A stretch of DNA of 64,000 nt, taken from contig JAHHHH010000016.1 in assembly GCA_019359415.1 (NCBI GenBank), positions 1 through 64,000 on the forward strand, in the 5' to 3' direction. A program made the position numbers and the translations under genes. Each line of letters opens with the position of its first letter. The first letter of the stretch is position 1. Below the pieces are notes generated by a model, which saw nothing but the letters and a program-made list of their open reading frames with translations, was not told where the DNA came from and did no database searches. Positions 11,628 to 49,056 of this stretch are shown one piece after another. This DNA is from Iphinoe sp. HA4291-MV1. GTDB lineage: Bacteria > Cyanobacteriota > Cyanobacteriia > Cyanobacteriales > Nostocaceae.

Positions 11628-12521
11628 GATTTCTTTACCTCTTTCTATCCACTCTAAATGAAATAAAAGCTTTAAGCTAAAAGCACTCAGCGTGCAGAAA
11701 GTTCTGAGTTATGAGTTATGAGTGACGCTTTTGCCTCCTCTTGAAGGAGCTATGAATTGCACACTCTTCGGCTTCCCGTAGGATAGGGTGGAGCCAGCAT
11801 CAGTTTCGGTGGTCCTTTGTACTCAGAACTGCTTTGGCTGATAGCCGATAGCTTAATCAACACAGCAGTATCAGAAACTAATATACAGCGTATTAATATC
11901 CACAATTCTCACCGCTACTTGCCTTAACTGTACTTTTGCTAAAAATTATTTCTTGTGGCAAAACTTTACAAAAAGCGGATGCAGTTCTGCCTGGTGCTAT
12001 ACCAACGTATATTTCTTTACTTGAAAGAATGGAGGTATTTAGGATTAACACAAAGATTTCCCCAAGAAACACCAAGCATATGGTCGTAGTCGTGTTTATC
12101 TCAATCAGTACAGAGGGAAGTTCAGTAGACCGAAAAGATTTCTAGAAGGCTTACCATTGGGGCATTCTGGCGGATTGTATACAATCCGCCAGAATGCCCG
12201 TATCATCTGCGTTTTGAGCAATAGGGTTGTAGATGAGTTCTCCTGCTAAGGTAAGCGATCGCTCGACCCTGTGCCCAAAACATCGCCCCAAACCCTCATT
12301 CTTGCGTTGACTGACAAAAGTTTTCGGTCTACTGAAGTTTTACAAGTACAAGAGCGAGTTGCTTCCTTTGGGGGATAGAATTTTAGACTCTTTAACAAAA
12401 TTTTACTATACCACGTTTGGAGGGTTAACAACGCGGATTTTGTATGTAATTCGTTAGTCTTGCTCCCAACGATTTTGATAATGACTTTCATTTCTTACTC
12501 ATGCAACTACTGTACCGATGT
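11628..12521. other. Intergenic region upstream of psbU
   Basis: About 890 bases with no convincing gene. The first part should hold the psbU promoter, and a dispersed repeat (cttcggcttcccgtagg) is near 11770. The centre is occupied by a 212-bp MITE (separate entry). The remainder to 12521 shows nothing recognisable. Confidence 0.6.
12123..12334 (+). mobile_element. 212-bp MITE, copy 1, with 5-bp target duplication
   Basis: A non-coding element with terminal inverted repeats CAGTAGACCGAAAA. It is flanked by a perfect five-base target duplication, AAGTT, at 12118-12122 and 12335-12339. Inside is a 40-bp perfect palindrome at about 12160-12199 centred on TATA. By eye it is identical, in reverse complement, to the element at 22959-23170. 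It carries no transposase and presumably depended on one acting in trans. The source IS family cannot be named from this window. Confidence 0.93.
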
Positions 12522-14733: not shown

Positions 14734-15639
14734 TCAAGAGTTATCTACTGCTGACAGTGCTACTTTTAGTTGCTGACAAGCTTTTTCAATCGCATCTACA
14801 CTACCAGGATTCACAAGTCCATAGTAGTCGAACTCGTAGACTCGATTATTTTTTGTAGCTTTAAGTTGATTCCAAAAAGATTCTGACTTGAAAGATTTTA
14901 ATAGCCCAGGTTGAGGACTAACAACAATTAAAACCTCTGGATTTGCTTCTAAAACTTTCTCAGCAGAGAGCGTTACATAACCAGGTATTGAGATTTTACC
15001 TTGTAAATCTGCTGACACATTTTTTGCTTGAAATTTCTCTAGCAAATTTCCTGCCCAACTTTTTTTGCTTGGTGACAAAATTGGTTGACGGCTAACCAGC
15101 ACTAATGTAGAAAGATGCTGAGTCGGCTTATCAGGTAAAAAAGTTTGATAGCGATTTAATAGCGGTGTTGGATCAGCATTAACTATTTTTGCCAGAGTTT
15201 TGGTTAAATTTTGTAATTTATCCCAACTATCAACCTTGGTGAGTAAAGTTGTCATACCAAGTTCTTTGAGTTTGTCGGTAGTCAGGTTAGAAAAACCTTC
15301 AGCACCAATAACCAAATCCGGTTTCAATGCTACGATTTTCTCTAAATTTGGTGTTGCTTGTCCCTCACTCACACGGGGAATATCTTTAAATCGTGAGTCA
15401 TTTTTGAATAAACTGCTACCAGCTATTCCAACTATTTTTGTGCTATCAAGTTGATAAGCAATATCAGATGAAAGAGATGTGAGGGTAATAATTCTTTTGG
15501 CTGGGTGCTGGGATTGCTGCGATATAGAGGTAGGACTTGCATCTGTATTTTTTATCTGTTCACTCGTTGCATTTGTGCAAGCAAAAATGCTCAAACTTAA
15601 CCACAGTATTAACCCAAACAGTATGAAACGACGTTGCAT
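14734..15639 (-). CDS. Cobalamin-type ABC transporter substrate-binding lipoprotein (BtuF-like)
   Basis: Periplasmic binding protein of the BtuF/FecB class, predicted to capture corrinoid for the ABC importer. I start it at MQRRFILFGLILW (15639), because a lipoprotein signal with lipobox SIFAC (Cys21) follows and a GGGGTGAT ribosome site precedes. The frame could extend 18 codons further upstream but would then overlap btuD. The body shows the two-lobed pattern RIITLTSLSSDIAYQL, VALKPDLVIG and EANPEVLIVV. It follows the ATPase gene with a 16-base gap, at the end of the minus-strand B12 cluster. Substrate is inferred from the upstream cobalamin riboswitch. Confidence 0.85.
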   Translation of the reverse strand: MQRRFILFGLILWLSLSIFACTNATSEQIKNTDASPTSISQQSQHPAKRIITLTSLSSDIAYQLDSTKIVGIAGSSLFKNDSRFKDIPRVSEGQATPNLEKIVALKPDLVIGAEGFSNLTTDKLKELGMTTLLTKVDSWDKLQNLTKTLAKIVNADPTPLLNRYQTFLPDKPTQHLSTLVLVSRQPILSPSKKSWAGNLLEKFQAKNVSADLQGKISIPGYVTLSAEKVLEANPEVLIVVSPQPGLLKSFKSESFWNQLKATKNNRVYEFDYYGLVNPGSVDAIEKACQQLKVALSAVDNS

Positions 15640-15655
15640 AATCACCCCATAATTT

Positions 15656-16465
15656 TTATTCATTGCTAGATGCAGCTTGGTATTCATCACCAATAGCAGC
15701 TAAGGAGCAAATTTGCAAACCAACTGGCGTTTCTAATACGGCAACTTCTATACCCAAAACATCAGCTAAATTTCCAGGCGTTAAAACTACCTTTGGTTCT
15801 CCGACTGCCCAGATTGTACCTTGGGACAACAGTGCAATGCGAGAGCTATACCTTGCCGCCAAATTCACGTCATGCAACACTGTGATAATTGATAACTCTT
15901 GTTCCTTGTTGAGTTGTTTGAGTAGTTCGAGTAACTGTAACTGATAGCGGATATCTAAATAAGTCGTCGGTTCATCCAACAGCAGAACTTGCGGATCTTG
16001 AGCTAACGCTAACGCCAAAAAAGCTCTTTGTCGCTCACCACCGGATAATTGTTCTACAGAGCGATCGCATAAAGATTGCATCCGTGTTAATTGTAAGGCT
16101 TTCTCTACTTTGTCTCTATCTTGTGCGTCTAATTCCCATTGCCACCAAGGTTGATGGGGTGTGCGTCCTAAAGATACCAACTGTCGTACTGTCAACCCCA
16201 CAGGTATTGTTTGCTGTTGTGGTAATAACGCCAGTTTTTGAGCGACAGTAGTAGCCTTTTGGGTGTGAATAGCTTTCCCATCCAGCAGCACAGCGCCTGT
16301 TTGTGGTTTCAACAGGCGACTCATGAGTTTTAGGAGAGTGGATTTTCCTGAACCATTCGCACCCACTAGACTCAGCCATTCTCCTGCTTGGAGTGCGATT
16401 TGGATTTCTTGGACAATCGGTTTACCTGCGTATCCACCAGTAAGATTGTGTGTTTCTAATAGCAT
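15656..16465 (-). CDS. FecCD-family ABC transporter ATPase (BtuD-like)
   Basis: ATPase of 269 residues that powers corrinoid or siderophore import. Walker A is GANGSGKST (36-44), Q-loop LLPQQQT, signature LSGGERQR, Walker B VLLLDEPTTYLD, and H-loop VLHDVN. It belongs with the FecCD permease 1.7 kb upstream and the two binding proteins of the cluster. It begins only 22 bases after the invertase stop codon, so it is likely read through from that gene. In BtuCD systems two copies join two permeases. Confidence 0.9.
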   Translation of the reverse strand: MLLETHNLTGGYAGKPIVQEIQIALQAGEWLSLVGANGSGKSTLLKLMSRLLKPQTGAVLLDGKAIHTQKATTVAQKLALLPQQQTIPVGLTVRQLVSLGRTPHQPWWQWELDAQDRDKVEKALQLTRMQSLCDRSVEQLSGGERQRAFLALALAQDPQVLLLDEPTTYLDIRYQLQLLELLKQLNKEQELSIITVLHDVNLAARYSSRIALLSQGTIWAVGEPKVVLTPGNLADVLGIEVAVLETPVGLQICSLAAIGDEYQAASSNE

Positions 16466-16487
16466 TGAAGAAAGTTAAGGAACAAAA

Positions 16488-17927
16488 CTATAGAGTGTTA
16501 ACCTCAACGAATTCAAACTCACAAGCCCTCGAAGCAGGTTCTACGGTAAATGGCGCAAAAGTAACCAAAGGTAAAAGTGTTGGGTTGCGTAACAGTTCTT
16601 TTGCTAACAAAAATCCTGCAATTGTCCAAGTTTGATATTTTTTGGCTTGTTTCCCAATGAGTCGCCCTTTCTTACCGTCGTAATACTCTGGCCATTCATC
16701 TAGATGTAAGCGTTCTTGTGCAATTTCAATAGCCTTGTGTGCAAGTTCCATTCTATTCGTTTTTACAGCAGCTGCTGATAATAACCACAATAAGACTGGC
16801 CAACTTCCACCATTATGATACGACCAGGGTATGTTTTTGGGATCACATCCAGTGACAATCCTATATTCTTCATGCTCTAAAGCTGGAAAACAAATTTTCA
16901 TGGGCATATCTCCCACCAAATCCTCCCATCGCTCCTCAATGAGATTCATAATTGCTTGTGATTGTTCTTCACTGGCAAGATCTGAGACAATAGCCATCAT
17001 GTTTCCTAAAGAAAAGAAGCGAGTATCTAGCTGCGAAGGTCCAACATTTCCCGCTAGATAACCTCCTTTTGTTGGCAGCCAACCGGCTAATTCATAATAA
17101 GGTAGTGAATCTGCATATACATTGAAGGGATTAGCTGCTGCTTTGCCATACTCTTCGCTCTTAAAGCGATAAATCTTATTTAAGCGATGGAGATCCATCC
17201 AATAATGCTGGCGAATATGAGCTTGTAGAAGCGGTAAGCGATTGTCAATAGCTGTAACAATATCTTCATTACCCTGACAAACCAGCAGTTCTCTAGCAGC
17301 ACGCAATGCAGCAAAAAATAGAGATTGAATTTCCAATGGATGTCCATAGATACCCATACGACGGTCAATCATACAAGCACCATCTGGAACTAACAGCGTC
17401 GGGTACATCTCAAACCGAGTTGCCAAGCACAGTTCCATAATTAATCTCAGACCGTGTTGGAATTCTGGTTGATAGGCTAGAGAAAAATTTTTTGTAGCAA
17501 CGACATAAGCACGCAATAAAATAACCCACCACAAGCAGGAATCAACAGGTGTGACTCGTGCAATAGCGTGTTCGCCAAAATCAGGTTCTAGATATTCTTC
17601 TTCAGTTTCGCATACAACTTTAAAGCTAGCTGGCATTAAACCTCGACCTGGCTTATAAGCATTCAATTGCTTTTCTTTAGGCTGTAACCTGAGAGTTTCT
17701 TCTAAAAAGTTGCGGACAATATCCGTTCTACCTTTAATCAGAAAAATTAAAGCTGAAGATACAAAATCCCGGACAAAACATTGGTCATAATTCAGCGCTT
17801 CTACCATCACATCATAAGCAGCTACTGTCCCTATAGGGCGACCTCTATAGTAAAGAATTGACATTTCTAGCGCTGTCCAAGCCTCTTTTTCTACACTGTC
17901 ACTCGATAACAAGTCATCTAATTGCAT
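16488..17927 (-). CDS. Alkaline/neutral invertase, glycoside hydrolase family 100
   Basis: Cytoplasmic sucrose hydrolase (sucrose to glucose plus fructose) of 479 residues. Typical GH100 blocks are present: [15 protein letters not shown] with the acid in the RDF region, [11 protein letters not shown], a [18 protein letters not shown] stretch, [14 protein letters not shown] and [16 protein letters not shown]. Length matches cyanobacterial InvA/InvB. In heterocyst formers an invertase of this family feeds reductant production, but which paralogue this is cannot be told. It sits within the B12 uptake cluster between permease and ATPase, with a 201-base gap upstream that may hold its own promoter. 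Confidence 0.92.
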
Positions 17928-18128
17928 TTGGGGAACAACTCCATCTGTCTCGTCAATTCTGATTTGGTCATCAATGCAACAATTTTTAAATTATTGCTGC
18001 TATTCTCATCATAACAATGATGATTTATTGAATAGCAAACACAGACTGCTAGGGAGCATCCCAATGCATGTAAAAATGCCTTTTTTTGTAACTAATAGTT
18101 AAGTTATGAGTTGTCAGAATTGCTTCGT

Positions 18129-19226
18129 TCATTTGGGAAAGGATGGGCGAGAGTTACGACGCAAAATTACCCAAGTCACAACAGGAGTCCCTATCAAAGC
18201 GGTAACAGAATTTAAAGGTAACACCATTTGACTGCCTGGTAGCTGTGATATCAAATCTGCAATTAATGCTAGAATTGCACCCATTAAGGTGACAGCAGGG
18301 ACTAACGCTCGATGATCCGAAGTGTTGAACAGACTGCGACAAAGGTGAGGAATCACCACACCTAAAAAGGCGATCGGTCCGCAAAAGGCGGTAATCGTAC
18401 CTGCTAAGATGGAGGCAGTAATAATAATCCAAAATCTTGCTTGTTGCACATCTAAACCGAGACTGCGTGCGTAAGCTTCACCGAGAAGGAGTGCATTCAA
18501 AGGCTTGGATAGCATGACCGAAACTAACAACGCTATCAGTAGCACAGGCGCTAAAACTAGCATTTGTTGCCAGGTGACACCACCAAAACTGCCAAAAGTC
18601 CATTGTAAGTATGATTGGATTTGCTGAGTTTCACTCAAATGCAGCAAGATACTCACAATAGCACTCGTTGCATAGCCAAACAACAACCCCAAAATCAGCA
18701 ACGTCATTGTGTCTTGGACGCGGCGAGAAACAAGTAACACTAACCCCAACACTGCTGCTGCACCCACACTCGCCGCCACGACTAAACCAAAATCGCCAAT
18801 CACTCCTAAATCTTTTAACAACGTACCCACACCCGTTACACTTGTTGTTAACACCACCAACGCGACTCCTAAAGAAGCACCAGAACTAATTCCTAATACA
18901 AAAGGTCCCGCCAAAGGATTTCTAAAAAGTGTTTGCATTTGTAACCCACTCACGCCTAAAGCTGCACCAGCAAGAGTTGCGGTTAAGGCTTTGGGGAGAC
19001 GAAATTTCAGAATAATATTAGTCCAAGTTGCTTTTTCTGCTTTTCCTCCTAGTAATATAGTCATCACTTCCTGGGTGGGAATACGGACTGAACCCAACGC
19101 TAAATCTAGTAAAAAAGCGAAAATCAAGCCGACAAGTAAAGTGAAAAAAACTAGAGAGTGTATCCCTAATATATTCTGAATGTTTGCTGGAAAAAATCTT
19201 TTTAATTTGTACTTAATTAGGGACAT
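18129..19226 (-). CDS. FecCD-family ABC transporter permease (BtuC-like)
   Basis: Permease of 365 residues with about ten membrane helices. FecCD hallmarks are RLPKALTATLAGAALGVSGL near residue 75, RNPLAGPFVLGISSGASLGV near 107-126, and the C-terminal coupling region GPIAFLGVVIPHLCR. It would form the corrinoid channel with the BtuD-like ATPase. It lies 52 bases after the larger binding-protein gene on the same strand, in the segment downstream of the cobalamin riboswitch. Confidence 0.9.
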   Translation of the reverse strand: MSLIKYKLKRFFPANIQNILGIHSLVFFTLLVGLIFAFLLDLALGSVRIPTQEVMTILLGGKAEKATWTNIILKFRLPKALTATLAGAALGVSGLQMQTLFRNPLAGPFVLGISSGASLGVALVVLTTSVTGVGTLLKDLGVIGDFGLVVAASVGAAAVLGLVLLVSRRVQDTMTLLILGLLFGYATSAIVSILLHLSETQQIQSYLQWTFGSFGGVTWQQMLVLAPVLLIALLVSVMLSKPLNALLLGEAYARSLGLDVQQARFWIIITASILAGTITAFCGPIAFLGVVIPHLCRSLFNTSDHRALVPAVTLMGAILALIADLISQLPGSQMVLPLNSVTALIGTPVVTWVILRRNSRPSFPK

Positions 19227-19278
19227 GGTAAACAGTTTGTCAAAAATAAATAGCTAGAATCTTAATTTGGCAGAAAGC

Positions 19279-20508
19279 TTATTTTGGAGACAGCTTGCCA
19301 AGTTTACGATAGTAAACGAGCTCATTATTAGGTAAAATTTCTGGATGTAAAATTTTAATCAAGTCGGACAAGACGACATCAGGGTTACTGGTTCCACCCT
19401 CCCAGTAGTCGTTACCACCACGCTCGTTGACACGAGCGTTGTTATTGTAAACATGACCCTTTTTCACAGCTGCAAAATCAGCATAGCGATTATCGTCAGC
19501 AATGACATCTTTTAAATTCTGCCAAGACTGATTGACATTTAACCAGTAATCTGATTTGGCAGCACGTTCAAAAACATCTTCAAATGACAAAGGTATACTA
19601 CCAGAAGAATTATCTGCACAAAGGTAGTCTGCACCCGTATCAGCTAAATATTTCGCTACATAACTTTTACATCCTGGCGTATACCAAATACCTTTAAAGT
19701 TGAATCCTGTAAAGACAGTCGGACGCTTTTTGATAGATTTGGTTTTGGAGGCTATGGCTTCATATCTGGTAGCGATTTCACTAAAGGTTTTTTGAGCAAT
19801 TTCTTCCTGATTAAAAAACAAAGCGGTAAACTTCAACCATTCTGCATGTCCCAGCGGGGACGTTTCCATGTATTCGGCATTTATCGCTACCTTCAAACCA
19901 GCTTCTAACAGCTTAGGATGACTATCTGTCTGTGGATTTCCCACACCATAAGTCATGACCAAATCTGGATTGATTTCTAATATTTTTTCGACATTTAGAC
20001 TCTCATTGTTGCCAACCTCTGCTATTTTACTTGCTTTTATCTTATTAACAACTTCCGCTGTATTGACTCTTTTAGTATCACTGACGCCAATCAGTTTATC
20101 TACTACACCTAATTTGGCTAAGTGTGGTAAATGAGTCGTAGAAAGAGAGACAACCGTATTTATAGGTACTGTGATTACCTGACTTTTCTTAAATCCTTCT
20201 GGTGCAGGTGTCCCACATTGCACTAAAATATATTGAAAACTTATCTGTGCATCCCGCCAGGGATTTTTTACCATCACAACTTTATAGTTTTTGTAATATT
20301 TCACCTCAAAACCAGTGGCATAATTTACGGTAACTTTCTCAGGAAAATAGTCGGTTTTTGAATTATAAATTTGAACGCATCTTTTGATATCTGTTGATGT
20401 AGTGGGAGGGATTGTTGTGCTGTGACAAGCAACAATCAAAACAGCAATCAACAGGAATTGACACAAGAAAGTGAGCAATTTGGCTTTGTGAAGTATTGTA
20501 GTTCTCAT
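19279..20508 (-). CDS. Second corrinoid/iron-type ABC substrate-binding lipoprotein
   Basis: Binding protein of 409 residues when started at MRTTILHKAKLLTFLCQ (20508), which gives a lipoprotein signal with lipobox IVAC (Cys28). The open frame extends 32 codons upstream into a repeat-rich leader, which I consider untranslated. After the lipobox is an extra region of about 90 residues before the FecB/BtuF fold begins at VPINTVVSLSTTHLPHL. Conserved NPDLVMTYG and GHAEWLKFTALFF follow. Having two distinct binding proteins in one importer cluster suggests different ligands or stages. It is followed after 52 bases by the permease. Confidence 0.83.
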   Translation of the reverse strand: MRTTILHKAKLLTFLCQFLLIAVLIVACHSTTIPPTTSTDIKRCVQIYNSKTDYFPEKVTVNYATGFEVKYYKNYKVVMVKNPWRDAQISFQYILVQCGTPAPEGFKKSQVITVPINTVVSLSTTHLPHLAKLGVVDKLIGVSDTKRVNTAEVVNKIKASKIAEVGNNESLNVEKILEINPDLVMTYGVGNPQTDSHPKLLEAGLKVAINAEYMETSPLGHAEWLKFTALFFNQEEIAQKTFSEIATRYEAIASKTKSIKKRPTVFTGFNFKGIWYTPGCKSYVAKYLADTGADYLCADNSSGSIPLSFEDVFERAAKSDYWLNVNQSWQNLKDVIADDNRYADFAAVKKGHVYNNNARVNERGGNDYWEGGTSNPDVVLSDLIKILHPEILPNNELVYYRKLGKLSPK

Positions 20509-20524
20509 CGGAAAGTTTTGCAGA

Positions 20525-20585
20525 AATAACCACTTATAAATACAGATAAGCACTAATAATTTATCTGTGTTTATCTGCTTGCATC
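20525..20585. repeat. CAGATAA-type inverted repeat in gene leader
   Basis: ATACAGATAAGCACTA and TTTATCTGTGTTTATCTGCT form an imperfect inverted repeat. The same motif family makes the hairpin at 14634. It lies between the [2Fe-2S] protein gene and the downstream binding-protein start. Confidence 0.5.
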
Positions 20586-20590
20586 CGTGA

Positions 20591-21478
20591 TTACTTTGTT
20601 TCAACTGACTCTGGAGGATAGCAATGTGCAGTTACTTTTTTACCTTCGACCAAATGTTGATTGACAATAGTTTCAGTCACCTCTGGTTTGACGCGAGTAT
20701 ACCAAGTCCTATCCTCTGAATAAAACACAACTGGGCCAAGTTTGCAAACTTCCAAACAACCAGAAGTTCTTACTTCCACATCCAAACCAGCTTTTTCAAC
20801 TGCTGCTTTTAGTGCATCAAAAGTAGGTTTCCAATTTTGGGAAGGAAGACAACGGGTAGACGTGCAAACAGATATGTAAGGATGCTTCAGGAAATTTTTT
20901 AGAAACGGAATTGGCTTTTTACCTAACACATAGATATCTCGTAGTTCTTCGTAAAGCTCTAATTTTGCTAAGTTCGGCTTACCTTCCGGTAATAAGTTTT
21001 CTCCCTCGACATAGGGATTAGGCAAGAAGATAGTCATCAAATTCTCACTTGCACCATTCCAAAAATCAATTCCCCAACTTCTAGGAATTCCTTCTGCATT
21101 AAACCGTCGATAAAAAGCAGCACGACTGACTTGACGCTGTTTCCTTAATTCTAGTGGTGTCTGAGAATGGGGACCACCTAAATTTGCTTCAATACATAAG
21201 TGAAGATGCCAACTTTCTGTAACTACGGTGAGGTATCCATCATAAAGAATACAAATCTTGGGTGCAGCAGGAAATTCCAATTCCAACACGCCACCTTGTA
21301 CAATATGTCCTACACCTACCTGATGCCAATTCTGCTGAAATAAGGTGTAAAGTAGTGATGATAAAACGTCGCAACTGCAATCAAAATCTTCATATTCGAT
21401 GTATCCTCCTGTTAGCGAAGGTTCGCTTACAACATGATTTAATGGTGTTACCCAAGGATGAAATTCACTCATAGTCAT
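20591..21478 (-). CDS. Protein with C-terminal thioredoxin-like [2Fe-2S] ferredoxin domain in B12 cluster
   Basis: Unnamed protein of 295 residues. The last 90 residues contain VCTSTRCLPSQNW and TSGCLEVCKLGPVVFY, a CxxxxC...CxxxC layout that fits the thioredoxin-like [2Fe-2S] ferredoxin fold. The N-terminal 200 residues are a separate domain (SCDVLSSLLYTLFQQNW, WHLHLCIEANLGG) that I do not recognise. It lies between the receptor and the binding protein of the riboswitch-controlled cluster, so a role in corrinoid or cobalt handling, such as a reduction step, is plausible but inferred. Confidence 0.6.
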   Translation of the reverse strand: MTMSEFHPWVTPLNHVVSEPSLTGGYIEYEDFDCSCDVLSSLLYTLFQQNWHQVGVGHIVQGGVLELEFPAAPKICILYDGYLTVVTESWHLHLCIEANLGGPHSQTPLELRKQRQVSRAAFYRRFNAEGIPRSWGIDFWNGASENLMTIFLPNPYVEGENLLPEGKPNLAKLELYEELRDIYVLGKKPIPFLKNFLKHPYISVCTSTRCLPSQNWKPTFDALKAAVEKAGLDVEVRTSGCLEVCKLGPVVFYSEDRTWYTRVKPEVTETIVNQHLVEGKKVTAHCYPPESVETK

Positions 21479-21549: not shown

Positions 21550-23836
21550 CTAAAATGTGGCATTTAAACCCACTTGAAAAACTCTCCCTGCATCAGGATA
21601 ACCAGGAAATAGTTGATACCGTTGGTTAAAGATATTGTCTACACTACCAGTAAGTATCAAGTTATCATTCAGAGGAATTCGCGTTTTGAAATCAAAAGTC
21701 GTATATCCAGACAAAGATTCAGTGTTGGTATTGTTGGTAGGATATGCACCGAGGGAGTGCATGAGGATTCCTGCATATAAACCTAGAGGTGTTTCATAAG
21801 AAATTCCCAAATTTAAACTATCTGCACCTGCAAATCTCAATTCTTTGTCTTTTTCGGCAGAGTTCACGCTCTCTTTAATGCGTGGGTCATTGAGTGTATA
21901 ATTGGCAAAGGCATAGACATTCTTTGCCAGTTGTACATTTAAAACCGCTTCAATTCCCCTAGTACGAACTAAGCCAATATTCTCATATGTGGCTACGGGA
22001 ACAGCAAAGTTATAGGCAATTAAATCTGATATGGTATTGCTGAAAAAAGTCAAACGCAACAAACCAAAATCCCACAGCTTCTGGTCAATTCCTATATCAT
22101 AACTATCACCATTCTCTGGTTTAAGATTCGGGTTACCAACGAAAGTAGAACCTCTAGCATATAAATCGGAAAGAGTCGGTGCGCGGAAATTTCTGATATA
22201 GTTAGCTCTGAGGTTAGTAGAGTCAGAAATTGCCCAGTGTGCGCCTACACTCGGTGATGTAAAGGAGCCATTTGCTAAAGAGCTAAAATCTTGGCGCAAG
22301 CCTAAATTTACACTGAAGCTAGGAGTAAAATTAATCTCGTATCTAGCGAAGAGTGCTCCTTGAGAGATGCTATCGTCATAACTAGTTGTGTCTGTATTTA
22401 TCAAATAGTTGAAAGTACTGTTACGTGCTGACACATTGCGGTAATCAAAGCCATAAACTAAGGTTTGATTTTTCGCAAATTTCCAACTGTGCTGCGCTTG
22501 AATTCCATAAGAATTTTGCTCGTTATCATATCGTGCAGAAGATGAAGCACGGCTATCAAAACGGGTATTGAGAAAATCGGCGTAAACTCTTGCTGTGAGT
22601 AGGGAATCGTTTCCTCCTCCTAGTTTTGAGTTCCAGGTTAAGTCGGTGAGAACTTGGTCTGTGTATTTGCGATCGCGCTGGGTCAAAGAGTTAAAATAAC
22701 CTTGTCCAAACTCGGGAAAGGGTATGGGGACTCCTCCTGGAACTCCTTGGTCTTTGCTTAAGTATAAGCTTGAGACAGTAAGAGTATTGCGTTTTCCTAA
22801 ATTCGCCTCCAACTTCACATTAAAGTTGTTGTAGAGAGTGTCATTGTTTTTCCTGGTTCCTGAAAAGTTGGCTTCTGGGATGGAAAAAGGATAATTGTTA
22901 TCTGCTTGGGTGCGGTTATATCCCACTACCCAGGAAATATCTCCTGCTTTCCCACTATCAGTAGACCGAAAACTTTTGTCAGTCAACGCAAGAATGAGGG
23001 TTTGGGGCGATGTTTTGGGCACAGGGTCGAGCGATCGCTTACCTTAGCAGGAGAACTCATCTACAACCCTATTGCTCAAAACGCAGATGATACGGGCATT
23101 CTGGCGGATTGTATACAATCCGCCAGAATGCCCCAATGGTAAGCCTTCTAGAAATCTTTTCGGTCTACTGACTATTGTTGATAGTCTGCTGATTGAGTCC
23201 ATAAGCACCAAAGGTGACTCCCGCTTGTGTTGTCACTTTCTCTGTCGGACGGCGAGTGATAATGTTAATCACTCCACCAATTGCATCGGAACCATATAGG
23301 GTAGAACCTCCTCCGGGTAAGACTTCTACTCGTTCAATGTTGTTGGTGGTGATTTCTGAAAGGTCAAAACTACCACTTCCAAGATTGTTTATCGGTCTGC
23401 CATCTAGTAAAATCAATACTTGTTCGGAGTTAGAACCCCGAATAAATTGACCGCTTAATGCGTTCACTTCTGTCCCAACTGTTCCATCAGGTAAGACTCC
23501 GGGGAGGAAACGCAACGCTTCTCTGACGGTTCGCATTCCCTGCGCTTCCATTTCTTCACCTGTAATGACATAAACTGGACGGGTAGAATCTTTGAGTGTC
23601 CCCTCTCGACGAAAGGGAGAGAAAACGGGTTGATTCAACACTTTACCCGTGACTGTCAGTTCAATAGGAGGTTCTTCTTCATCTGCTGGCGGACTTGTGC
23701 TTTGTGCGATTTTTTCTGGCTGTGGACTCTCTCCAGCACACACAGCATAGTTCCACAATATCAAAGTCGTCATTACACTCATACCAGACACAACGACTTT
23801 TACCGCACAACGGCAATTAAAGAGAATATTTTGCAT
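21550..23836 (-). pseudogene. TonB-dependent corrinoid receptor (BtuB-like), split by a MITE
   Basis: Outer-membrane receptor under a cobalamin riboswitch. The first half (23836 down to 23171) has a signal peptide, a TonB box-like IELTVTG and a plug domain (TGEEMEAQG, EALRFLPGV, GSNSEQVLILLDGRPIN, GGVINIITRRP). It then hits CAG-TAG of the MITE and stops. The second half (22953 down to 21550) is the beta-barrel with GLRQDFSS, NLKPENGDSYDIG and the terminal aromatic-ending strand VFQVGLNATF. Removing the 212-bp MITE and one 5-base duplication rejoins NNS to GKAGDISW in frame, giving 222 + 467 = 689 residues. As it stands no full receptor can be made unless the element excises precisely. Confidence 0.93.
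22959..23170 (-). mobile_element. 212-bp MITE, copy 2, inserted in the TonB receptor gene
   Basis: Same element as at 12123-12334 but in the opposite orientation: ends CAGTAGACCGAAAA, length 212 bp and the internal 40-bp palindrome. It is flanked by the perfect five-base target duplication ACTAT at 22954-22958 and 23171-23175. No base difference from copy 1 was seen by eye, which points to recent movement. Confidence 0.95.
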
Positions 23837-23849
23837 CTGTACCTCGCAG

Positions 23850-24035
23850 ACGATTTTATGTTTTTTATCTCAGGCGGGCATTCTGACTTAGAGACAAATA
23901 TTTCGAGTCTCATCACAGCTGCGGGACAGTGCCGGATTTTCACCGTTCGCCTACGGCGTAGCGCAGGCATACTTTCCCCGTTACCTCTGATGGCTGAACC
24001 CCATCAGAACCCAGGATTTGCTGTAATTTAACATG
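23850..24035 (-). promoter_or_regulatory. Cobalamin (B12) riboswitch
   Basis: On the minus strand ahead of the TonB receptor I read the conserved core CGGTGAAAATCCGGCACTG, TCCCGCAGCTGTGATG and the B12 box GTCAGAATGCCCGCCTGAGA. These match the adenosylcobalamin aptamer. It should shut down receptor and perhaps downstream uptake genes when B12 is plentiful. A palindromic stretch of about 25 bases (gcctgcgctacgccgtaggc) sits between GGGGAAAGT and CGGTGAAAA, where the usual aptamer has only a few bases, so this core carries an insertion. Confidence 0.92.
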
Positions 24036-47037: not shown

Positions 47038-49050
47038 ATGAAGACGACTAAAACGAGTTTCAAGACTACGGTGGTATGGAACACAATTAACTGGAAGAAA
47101 ATCCAGCGAATTGTGTTCAAGTTGCAAAAGCGCATACACAAAGCTGCTCAACGTGGGGATGTCAAAGCGGTGCGACGACTCCAGAAGATTTTGATGAAAT
47201 CCTGGTACGCCAAGCTTTTAGCAACGCGACAAGTGACCCAAGACAATCAAGGTAAGAAAACAGCAGGGGTTGATGGAGTGAAATCTCTCGGATACGCCCA
47301 ACGTCTGGAACTAGCTAACAATTTAGGAACCTTAGGGTTAGTAAAACCAACCCGGAGAATCTGGATACCTAAGCTAGGGACAGATGAAAAGCGTCCCCTT
47401 GGAATTCCCGTAATGGCAGACAGAGCGAATCAAGCATTAGCTAAGTTCGCCCTAGAACCACAATGGGAAGCAAGATTCGAGCCAAACAGTTATGGGTTCA
47501 GACCAGGAAGGGCGACACACGATGCCATCGAAGCCATATACTTAGCAATACATTGTAAAGCTAAGTACGTGCTAGATGCTGATATATCCAAGTGCTTTGA
47601 CAACATTGACCATCAAAAGCTACTGAACAAACTAAACACATACCCATCCATGAGACGAATGATTCGTAACTGGCTAAAAGCTGGATTTATGGATGGACGC
47701 GATATGTTCCCGACTGAAACGGGTACACCACAGGGAGGGGTAATTTCCCCACTACTGGCAAATATCGCACTCCACGGTATGGAAGAGGTCATCAAGGAAT
47801 ACGCAAACACCCTACCTACTCGTAGGAACTATGGGAAAAAGCAGAACCCTTCGGGTTCACCAGTCGCCTCTCCTTGCGGAGACGCTCTTGCAACAACGGG
47901 GGGAACCCCCGCACAGCGCTGGATTCACCGCAATGCCCTCAGTTTAATTCGCTACGCTGACGATTTCGTGATTATCCATGAAGACATCAATGTTGTGTTA
48001 GGGGCAAAAACCGTAATTGAAGGTTTCTTAAAAGACATCGGTTTGGAACTTAAGCCAAGCAAGACTAGAATTTGTCACACCTTTAAAGAGTATAAAAGGA
48101 AACAGCCTGGATTTGACTTCTTAGGTTTTAACATTCGGCAATTTCCGGTCAACGATGGGATGAGCGCAAAAGCGCCTAAAACAGGAAAAATTCTTGGATT
48201 CCAAACAATCATCCAACCAAGTAAGAAAGCGGTACAACGTCACTACAAGGCAATATCCGACATCATCGACTCCCACAAGAGCGCACCACAAAAAGTGCTA
48301 ATCCAAAAACTCAACCCTATCATTCAAGGATGGGCTAACTACTACTCAGCCGTTTGCTCAACAGATGCTTTCACCAGATTAAATCACATGATTTATACCA
48401 AGCTGACATCATGGGCAAGATATAGACACCCGAACAAAGGTGCTAAATGGGTAGCTGAGAAATACTGGATAACAGTAGGTGGGGATAATTGGGTGTTTGG
48501 GCATACCAACCCAGAGACAGATGAAAGATATATCTTGTCAAAGCATACATGGACTAAGATTGTACGCCACATCAAGGTCAAAGGCGATGCCTCACCATTT
48601 AACGGTGATTTCGTCTACTGGGGAACAAGAACTGGAAAAAGTAAGGAGATTCCCTCTCTACTCGCAAAAATCCTTCATAAGCAGAAAGGAAAATGTGTTC
48701 ACTGCGGTCTAACCTTTACAACAGAAGACCAAATTGAACTTGACCACATTATACCAATCAGCTTGGGCGGTGAGACAGTGCTGCGGGAGGGTTTCCCTCT
48801 CAGTAGCCCAGACGCTACGCGTTGGCACAAGCCTCCGCAGGACTTACCGCAGGTAACTGCGAACCCGGAGGGGAAAAGAAAGTTCGATAACATTCAAGCA
48901 TTGCATAGACATTGCCATGACCAAAAGACAGCCAGAGATGGCAGTTTGAGCAGTTCCCATGACAAGGGTATGTTTTCTGAGGAGCCGGATGAGGTGAAAG
49001 TCTCATGTCCGGTTCTGGAGACGAGTAGCACTCGTGAGGGTGTTGCTTAG
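47038..49050 (+). CDS. Group II intron-encoded reverse transcriptase/maturase with HNH endonuclease
   Basis: Multifunctional protein of 670 residues that helps the intron splice and move. It has a reverse transcriptase domain (TRRIWIPKLGTDEKRPLGIP; catalytic YADD in LIRYADDFVIIH), maturase/X domain (NPIIQGWANYYSAVCS) and an HNH domain (CVHCGLTF, LDHIIPISLGG, LHRHCHDQKTA). Two stretches are foreign to the family: NPSGSPVASPCGDALATTGG before YADD and about 33 residues after LGGE in the HNH. Both derive from dispersed repeats inserted in frame. The frame reads through domain V and stops six bases before the intron end. Confidence 0.93.
   Translation: MKTTKTSFKTTVVWNTINWKKIQRIVFKLQKRIHKAAQRGDVKAVRRLQKILMKSWYAKLLATRQVTQDNQGKKTAGVDGVKSLGYAQRLELANNLGTLGLVKPTRRIWIPKLGTDEKRPLGIPVMADRANQALAKFALEPQWEARFEPNSYGFRPGRATHDAIEAIYLAIHCKAKYVLDADISKCFDNIDHQKLLNKLNTYPSMRRMIRNWLKAGFMDGRDMFPTETGTPQGGVISPLLANIALHGMEEVIKEYANTLPTRRNYGKKQNPSGSPVASPCGDALATTGGTPAQRWIHRNALSLIRYADDFVIIHEDINVVLGAKTVIEGFLKDIGLELKPSKTRICHTFKEYKRKQPGFDFLGFNIRQFPVNDGMSAKAPKTGKILGFQTIIQPSKKAVQRHYKAISDIIDSHKSAPQKVLIQKLNPIIQGWANYYSAVCSTDAFTRLNHMIYTKLTSWARYRHPNKGAKWVAEKYWITVGGDNWVFGHTNPETDERYILSKHTWTKIVRHIKVKGDASPFNGDFVYWGTRTGKSKEIPSLLAKILHKQKGKCVHCGLTFTTEDQIELDHIIPISLGGETVLREGFPLSSPDATRWHKPPQDLPQVTANPEGKRKFDNIQALHRHCHDQKTARDGSLSSSHDKGMFSEEPDEVKVSCPVLETSSTREGVA
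47845..47920. repeat. Dispersed repeat inserted in frame in the reverse transcriptase gene
   Basis: CCCTTCGGGTTCACCAGTCG and gcggagacgctcttgcaaca, with ggggggaacccccgc, resemble repeats at 4088 and 40534. It adds about 25 codons just before the YADD block without breaking the frame. Confidence 0.75.
48777..48874. repeat. Dispersed repeat inserted in frame in the HNH domain
   Basis: The reverse complement contains CCTGCGGAGGCTTGTGCCAA, also found at 1840. It adds about 33 codons between LGGE and KFDNIQALHRHC of the HNH nuclease, which may weaken DNA cleavage. Confidence 0.75.
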
Positions 49051-49056
49051 TTTAAT

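Follow-up and report, generated by a model that had tools for sequence, protein, structure and literature searches.

Interruption of a B12-type TonB receptor gene by a 212-bp MITE with ISH3-type ends in the cyanobacterium Iphinoe sp. HA4291-MV1

A 212-bp MITE lies within a TonB receptor gene of Iphinoe sp. HA4291-MV1, and very probably a non-autonomous ISH3-type transposon has recently jumped into a gene of the B12 type. The window analysed is the whole stretch of 64,000 nucleotides at positions 1 to 64,000 of contig JAHHHH010000016.1 (assembly GCA_019359415.1). The sequence itself shows that the terminal repeats are intact, that the duplication is of 5 bp and has the form ANNNT, that relatives are uninterrupted, that dozens of near-identical copies exist and that a sister-species ISH3 element has the same ends. 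A DDE transposase of the ISH3 type, supplied in trans, would have excised or copied the element, made a 5-bp staggered cut at an ANNNT site and joined the element there; the founder of the burst of copies would have carried a perfect palindrome, probably derived from a template switch in an older imperfect inverted repeat. The observation that gave rise to this work is confirmed to the base, and the insertion is a clean, young instance of a well-known type of event.

The receptor gene is encoded on the minus strand. Its 5' part (23171..23836, 222 codons) carries the plug domain (PF07715 Plug, 4.5e-29, scanned as ORF 23165-23836) and its 3' part (21550..22953, 467 codons plus stop) carries the beta-barrel (PF00593, 1.2e-53, scanned as ORF 21550-23022), hence both are present at Pfam level. 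The element (22959..23170) sits between two ACTAT target-site duplications located by base-level comparison, one on the receptor's downstream side (22954..22958) and the other on its upstream side (23171..23175). Removal of the element and one ACTAT restores 689 receptor codons (222 + 467 + stop) with zero internal stops, the clean insertion that had been predicted, and neither half contains a further stop or frameshift. The original prediction that the terminal repeat, beginning CAGTAG, brings an immediate stop is equally borne out, as the upstream frame ends at the element's own CAG TAG and ORF 23165-23836 encodes 223 aa. Translation would halt at this terminal-repeat stop after 223 residues, yielding the plug only, while the barrel half would be separated from the N-terminal part, including the signal peptide. 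No working receptor is expected from such an arrangement, and the receptor is probably inactive.

The element in the receptor gene is assigned to the minus strand because it is the reverse complement of a second, intergenic copy at 12123..12334 (+). This second copy had been described as apparently identical and flanked by a perfect AAGTT duplication; base-by-base alignment gave 212/212 identity, and the duplication lies at 12118-12122 and 12335-12339. The outer terminal inverted repeats, CAGTAGACCGAAAA at 22959..22972 (+) and again at 23157..23170 (-), match at 14/14 bases; the former is identical over these 14 bases to each end of the ISH3 element in locus L187, and the latter supplies the CAG TAG that closes the receptor frame. 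The combined target-plus-end pattern ANNNTCAGTAGAYCNNAAA occurs four times in the window, solely at these four ends, compared to a maximum of 0 in 100 shuffles. At 212 bp the element can hold at most 70 codons and is non-coding by size, and the ORFs of at least 80 aa that touch it straddle its edges. As a single strand it folds far more strongly than 200 shuffles (z -7.78). The predicted identification as a MITE therefore stands on a short non-coding sequence without a transposase, terminal inverted repeats, a target-site duplication of fixed length and multiple copies. Around the intergenic copy (11950-12500) there are three promoter-like matches versus 0.8 expected, one of them within the element, and no terminator-like site was found; matches to the 12123 site within the genus cover the element only and not its flanks.

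The genome is a 95.35% complete draft of 7.36 Mb in 140 contigs, and the copy count covers the stretches fetched from it, which include some but not all of the listed ends. The DNA so examined yielded 52 distinct complete copies, with different flanks in every case; 43 are identical and nine have the common change C154A, therefore at least two variants were moving. Genome-wide there are 129 exact 14-base ends and 62 exact 20-base right ends. The true copy number exceeds 52, as eight contig edges among the fetched stretches fall 120-124 bases inside an element. Matched 5-bp duplications flank 48/52 copies and all 48 have the form ANNNT, for which the window background is 0.077; this target preference is part of the added value of the analysis. 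The four copies with unmatched flanks (L009, where two bases differ; L018, with 6 bp in common; L226, where one base differs; and L175:1999) may have arisen by mutation, by wrong joins or when copies recombined with one another. The claim of recent movement was originally made from two copies and is reinforced by those that the genome search recovered. Mobility is read from copy identity together with the uninterrupted relatives. Since the copies differ at one position, most duplications are perfect and the broken genes are still readable, both target preference and cost could be measured directly.

The burst looks young and lineage-specific, given that no near-identical copy was found in relatives. 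Element matches occur in 15 of 60 genomes (own included, up to 13 candidates scored per genome), and the best-scoring candidate outside the host is 79% identical over positions 1-206 (G024); elsewhere, shorter parts reach 86-88%, and a few pieces of less than 40 bases score higher still. Across 388 genomes of the order (own included) there are matches in 22, the best outside the host being 84% over 142 bases among at most two candidates scored per genome. Plasmid records contain two matches (66% over the full element and 82% over 62 bases), and a search of 50,697 phage records gave zero element matches. The one match in IMG/VR, IMGVR_UViG_3300036393_000020, is very probably contig C79 of this genome, as both the length and the element site are the same. 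Pfam analysis of nine ORFs on the IMG/VR contig identified NRPS-type products (4/9), a RecD2 helicase, an M28 peptidase, a TPS secretion protein, a DUF5907 match below cut-off and one product without a family; the viral call may be wrong or concern one part of the contig.

The TonB receptor is one among several victims, as other genes are split too. Thirteen of the 52 copies sit between in-phase open frames (at least 40 codons per side and at least 180 in total, judged on frame and phase without joining), and Pfam was run on 11 of these, with L009 and L218 left out. Clear splits affect the TonB receptor, an NRPS adenylation domain, a TENA-family protein, a 2-hydroxyacid dehydrogenase, a CHAT-domain protein and a trypsin-like protein; the N-terminal pieces of the latter two fall slightly short of the cut-off. 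Less certain are a pilin-like protein, a PEP-CTERM protein, a transposase (match below cut-off), one pair without a family and L125:9865-11599 (G000:C80), where EAD1/YukD-like parts precede the element and a ubiquitin-conjugating-enzyme-like part follows it. The last of these was possibly a conflict or defence protein.

Uninterrupted orthologues are common in relatives. In tblastn searches with the rejoined receptor, the alignment spans the junction in 44/46 relatives' loci, all with 0-39 gap positions; the exceptions are L075, cut off by a contig end, and L076, with no match at 1e-10. In L068 the receptor aligns in two pieces that part at residue 308, downstream of the junction. The exact element is absent from all 46 loci, and the empty-site check that had been proposed for sister genomes returned orthologues without the element. 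The original prediction named an uninterrupted receptor in sister strains without the ACTAT site as grounds for doubt; such receptors exist, yet they do not refute the insertion because it predicts exactly that. Eight genomes of the genus were compared, and a barrel-half orthologue of 89-94% identity is present in 6/7 of the others, with only a 30% paralogue in the seventh (G001). The Brasilonema angustatum orthologue (L240 / L032) is from G002, whose receptor DNA matches L032 without a difference; it is cut short by an in-frame stop at codon 311, which may be a second, independent break or else a sequencing error. Among the genomes compared, a single genus thus has this B12-type receptor in intact, broken and absent states.

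An assembly artefact, in which unrelated flanks were joined by repeat resolution or a consensus element was filled in, would be in keeping with a single draft of 140 contigs, with the contig edges that stop inside an element and with the 4/52 unmatched duplications. It is nevertheless very improbable, as both parts of the receptor correspond to a single continuous gene in relatives and are bordered by a matched duplication, and 48 matched ANNNT duplications are unlike the product of a wrongly filled gap. The nine-copy one-base variant, in particular, argues against gap-filling with one consensus. The insertion could alternatively be an excisable switch conferring phase-variable corrinoid uptake, as originally suggested. 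DDE elements can excise, and the ends of this one are intact. However, matches within the assembly comprise a single barrel half and a 30% paralogue, with no empty site among them, and two protein queries and one family model found no ISH3 transposase there. After excision by DDE enzymes the duplication often stays in place, and the frame would then be displaced by five bases; the other copies are scattered over many unrelated places. Phase variation by MITE excision thus found no support and is very improbable, and a recent jump by a non-autonomous element remains the preferred explanation.

The mover was likely an ISH3-family transposase. An intact ISH3 element of 1849 bp in Brasilonema sp. 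CT11 (G005) has exactly CAGTAGACCGAAAA at both ends and the target-site duplication ACCGT, and another of 1525 bp on a plasmid of Tolypothrix PCC 7601 has CAGTAGACCTAAAA ends (one base of the first 14 different) and the duplication AATTT. The MITE matches the G005 element over 19-20 terminal bases at 95%, while its interior has no similarity to either ISH3 element; the link to ISH3 thus rests on the ends and the duplication, with only those 19-20 or so terminal bases in common. The annotated plasmid transposases of Trichormus and Tolypothrix both score above the NCBIfam cut-off for ISH3, and the G005 protein is 84% identical to its Tolypothrix counterpart. The same model gave six passing matches in 4/60 genomes and E values below 0.001 in 19/60. 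No ISH3 transposase was found in the Iphinoe assembly with two protein queries and one family model, one of these searches recovering both reference records as positive controls. The search that had been proposed for a transposase with matching ends thus gave no autonomous partner in this 95%-complete draft, and in a sister species it gave an ISH3 element with the same 14-base ends. The ISH3 gene may be missing from the assembly, which is 95.35% complete and broken at repeats, or it may have been lost. An autonomous partner in the same genome is not required by all definitions of a MITE.

The same end occurs in a contig-edge sequence (C63), and a search from it identified 11 plasmid records whose ends are similar. 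Six plasmid stretches were examined, five from that search and one from the plasmid matches to the element, and two of these (L166 and L169, from Trichormus plasmid A and Tolypothrix PCC 7601) have an ISH3 gene at the end; in L167 an unrelated IS5 gene lies close by, no transposase is annotated in L165 or L168, and L164 carries no annotation at all. A pair search that required A...T located five ISH3 elements (L169, L187, L185, L184 and L189) whose paired CAGTAGA-type ends are flanked by an ANNNT duplication, together with a second L189 pair and L190, which were taken for chance or nested matches. Six ISH3 elements have matched flanks of 5 bp, the length seen for the MITE; five of the duplications (ACCGT, AATTT, ATATT, AATTT and AAAGT) are of the form that the search required, hence they do not independently prove ANNNT for ISH3 elements, and the sixth, CTGAG at L186:1212-2733 (G030), an element with CAGTAAACC ends, is not ANNNT. 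The flanks of the L203 ISH3 element are unmatched. A different DDE enzyme with similar ends could have moved the MITE in place of an ISH3 transposase, a reading that accommodates the lack of an ISH3 gene in the assembly, the 19-20 bases in common with ISH3 and no more, and the finding of an ISH3 gene at such ends in only two of six plasmid stretches. It is nonetheless unlikely, since the G005 element carries the exact first 14 bases of the MITE at both ends and the five end pairs combine an ANNNT duplication (with A...T required by the search) with CAGTAGA-type ends. The assignment to ISH3 means that a MITE family of several Nostocales genomes is now tied to ISH3 elements; one paper, a general IS survey, covers ISH3, MITEs and cyanobacteria together.

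Other candidates for the partner were rejected. The IS5 transposase near a related MITE of Nostoc C052 (L167) belongs to a different family, and the MITE flanks there mismatch as a duplication. A resident autonomous element was considered at the unpaired ends (L108, L111-L113, L115, L116 and L124), and inspection by eye of the ORFs in L116, L118, L122 and L124 found no transposase. A match on C60 covers 42 residues with two stops (E 0.017) and is weak, at most a relic. Further mobile sequences were encountered along the way. A second, 211-bp type of MITE at L125:1241-1451 (G000:C80) has CAGTAGATCACAAA ends and an AAAAT duplication, and the ISH3 element L185 of another genome has the same ends. 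On G000:C115 (10806-12917; L170 2806-4918), two outward-facing ISH3-type ends, each beside AAATT, surround a stretch of approximately 2.1 kb whose ORFs appear high-GC by eye, either an inside-out arrangement or a wrong join. In the window itself, a group II intron match (RF00029, overlapping RF04357) at 48979-49056 (+) lies at the 3' end of an ORF of 670 aa (47038-49050), which probably encodes an intron-encoded protein.

Element positions 38-77 (23094..23133) form a perfect 40-bp palindrome that is present in 52/52 complete copies and imperfect in all 14 aligned relatives from 11 other genomes, which form 5-13 of 20 pairs versus 20/20 here. These relatives were drawn from 16 matches, leaving out L251, which is without the region, and L256, which is more diverged; outside the palindrome they are 69-93% identical. 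The right arm of L078 is identical to that of the present element at 20/20 positions and its left arm at 10/20, on which basis it appears that, in this lineage, a reverse-complemented copy of the right arm took the place of the left arm. Such a change would resemble quasipalindrome correction by template switching, a known process (PMC7202029, PMC8604942). The palindrome predates the burst, as all 52 copies carry it, which suggests that the template switch came before amplification. L249 (G269, 1501-1619), a distant relative, carries at this position a shorter perfect palindrome of its own, TTTGGGGGATACAATCCCCCAAA. It is possibly the result of a second, independent template switch and hints at a site predisposed to such changes; L250 (G344), a near relative of L249, has the same query range and identity. 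A speculative and improbable proposal is that the element became hypermobile through the switch to a perfect palindrome, and that this set off the burst in which the receptor and several other genes were broken. The route might perhaps have been cruciform or hairpin extrusion favoured by the transposase or the replication fork, the transposase having since been lost. The element nevertheless provides a case, open to testing, in which a structural mutation from imperfect to perfect palindrome came ahead of amplification.

The receptor was described at the outset as B12-regulated, and a cobalamin riboswitch does lie just upstream of it (23856..24029, -; RF00174, 37.3 bits versus a gathering score of 31.5), as it also does immediately 5' of the receptor in 4/4 relatives' loci scanned. 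The top NCBIfam match of the 5' part is TIGR01779 TonB-B12, under its cut-off. Two intact orthologues score 206.1 and 204.0 bits with this model versus a cut-off of 599.7, with a haem-receptor model second, and the top solved-structure matches of one intact orthologue are to BtuB (3rgm, E 7.8e-32). At these orthologue scores the receptor is not a strict equivalog, and the name BtuB in that sense cannot be upheld; 'BtuB-like' is preferred because of the riboswitch, the neighbouring genes and the best-model and structure rankings, which together point to a role with B12. The downstream uptake genes (14734..20604, all on the minus strand, assigned with Pfam and NCBIfam) encode a periplasmic binding protein (19279-20604), a BtuC/FecCD-type permease (18129-19226), a GH100 invertase-type protein within the row (16488-17927), a FecE/BtuD-type ATPase (15656-16465) and another periplasmic binding protein (14734-15693), which passes the broad TroA_like subfamily only. 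All of the uptake neighbours are under the cut-offs of the equivalogs BtuC, BtuF, IsdE, FecE and BtuD, and the two binding proteins score slightly higher as the haem protein IsdE than as BtuF. A DUF7676 gene (20591-21478, -) is also part of the B12-uptake gene row (14734-21478), alongside the two binding-protein genes.

The host probably makes its own corrinoid, with uptake serving for salvage, since CobW, CobG and CbiE/CbiT score above NCBI cut-offs; the CobG-type protein also scores 481 with the NirA model, below the NirA cut-off. Two other B12 riboswitches in the genome adjoin the CobW gene and the CobG-type gene, and the 30% receptor paralogue on C71 has no riboswitch within the surrounding 5 kb. 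The corrin-synthesis genes, along with loss or mutation of the receptor in two sister genomes, suggest that loss of the receptor is tolerable. It is a plausible idea, if a little short of probable, that the receptor was already dispensable and that the insertion survived through neutrality, which would concern the consequence of the jump and not its mechanism and is compatible with the preferred explanation. The codon-311 stop in B. angustatum, the lack of a close orthologue in G001 and the corrin-synthesis genes of the host fit such dispensability, whereas the otherwise intact halves, with no other stop or frameshift, and a riboswitch score still above cut-off speak against it. Any decay before the insertion was slight, as both halves are otherwise intact.

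The receptor resembles E. coli BtuB in the solved-structure matches of an intact orthologue and in the B12 riboswitch and transporter-type genes that adjoin it, but it differs in that the orthologue reaches about a third of the TIGR01779 cut-off. Cyanobacterial ISH3 elements resemble the MITE in their ends (CAGTAGACCGAAAA in G005 and on plasmid A of Trichormus variabilis ATCC 29413, CAGTAGACCTAAAA in Tolypothrix) and in the 5-bp ANNNT duplication of G005 and Tolypothrix, the Trichormus stretch covering one end only; they differ in being 1849 and 1525 bp long with a DDE transposase of 378-379 aa, and in having no sequence similarity to the interior of the MITE. Older Nostocales MITEs of approximately 210 bp (for example L078, L080, L247 and L248) can be aligned with the element and are 69-93% identical outside the palindrome in the 14 aligned, although they have an imperfect inverted repeat (5-13/20 pairs versus 20/20) and few copies among the candidates scored per genome.

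Events of this type are already known in cyanobacteria. An active MITE, Nezha, is described in the title of a paper cited in PMC10969869, and an account of Microcystis aeruginosa PCC 7806 reports a 187-nt MITE with 33 identical copies in one strain and 31 in the other (PMC11448079). As described there, that element is similar to the present one in having dozens of identical copies in one cyanobacterium, terminal repeats that match a full IS and a transport gene (sbp) among its targets (PMC11448079). It differs in its ISL3-type ends and 8-bp duplications, compared to ISH3-type ends and 5-bp ANNNT duplications here, and the replacement leading to a perfect palindrome is described for the present element and not in the part of the Microcystis account consulted. 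What is new here is the link to ISH3, the scale, with 13/52 copies between in-phase frames, and the derived perfect 40-bp palindrome, together with the ANNNT preference and the lineage-specific burst.
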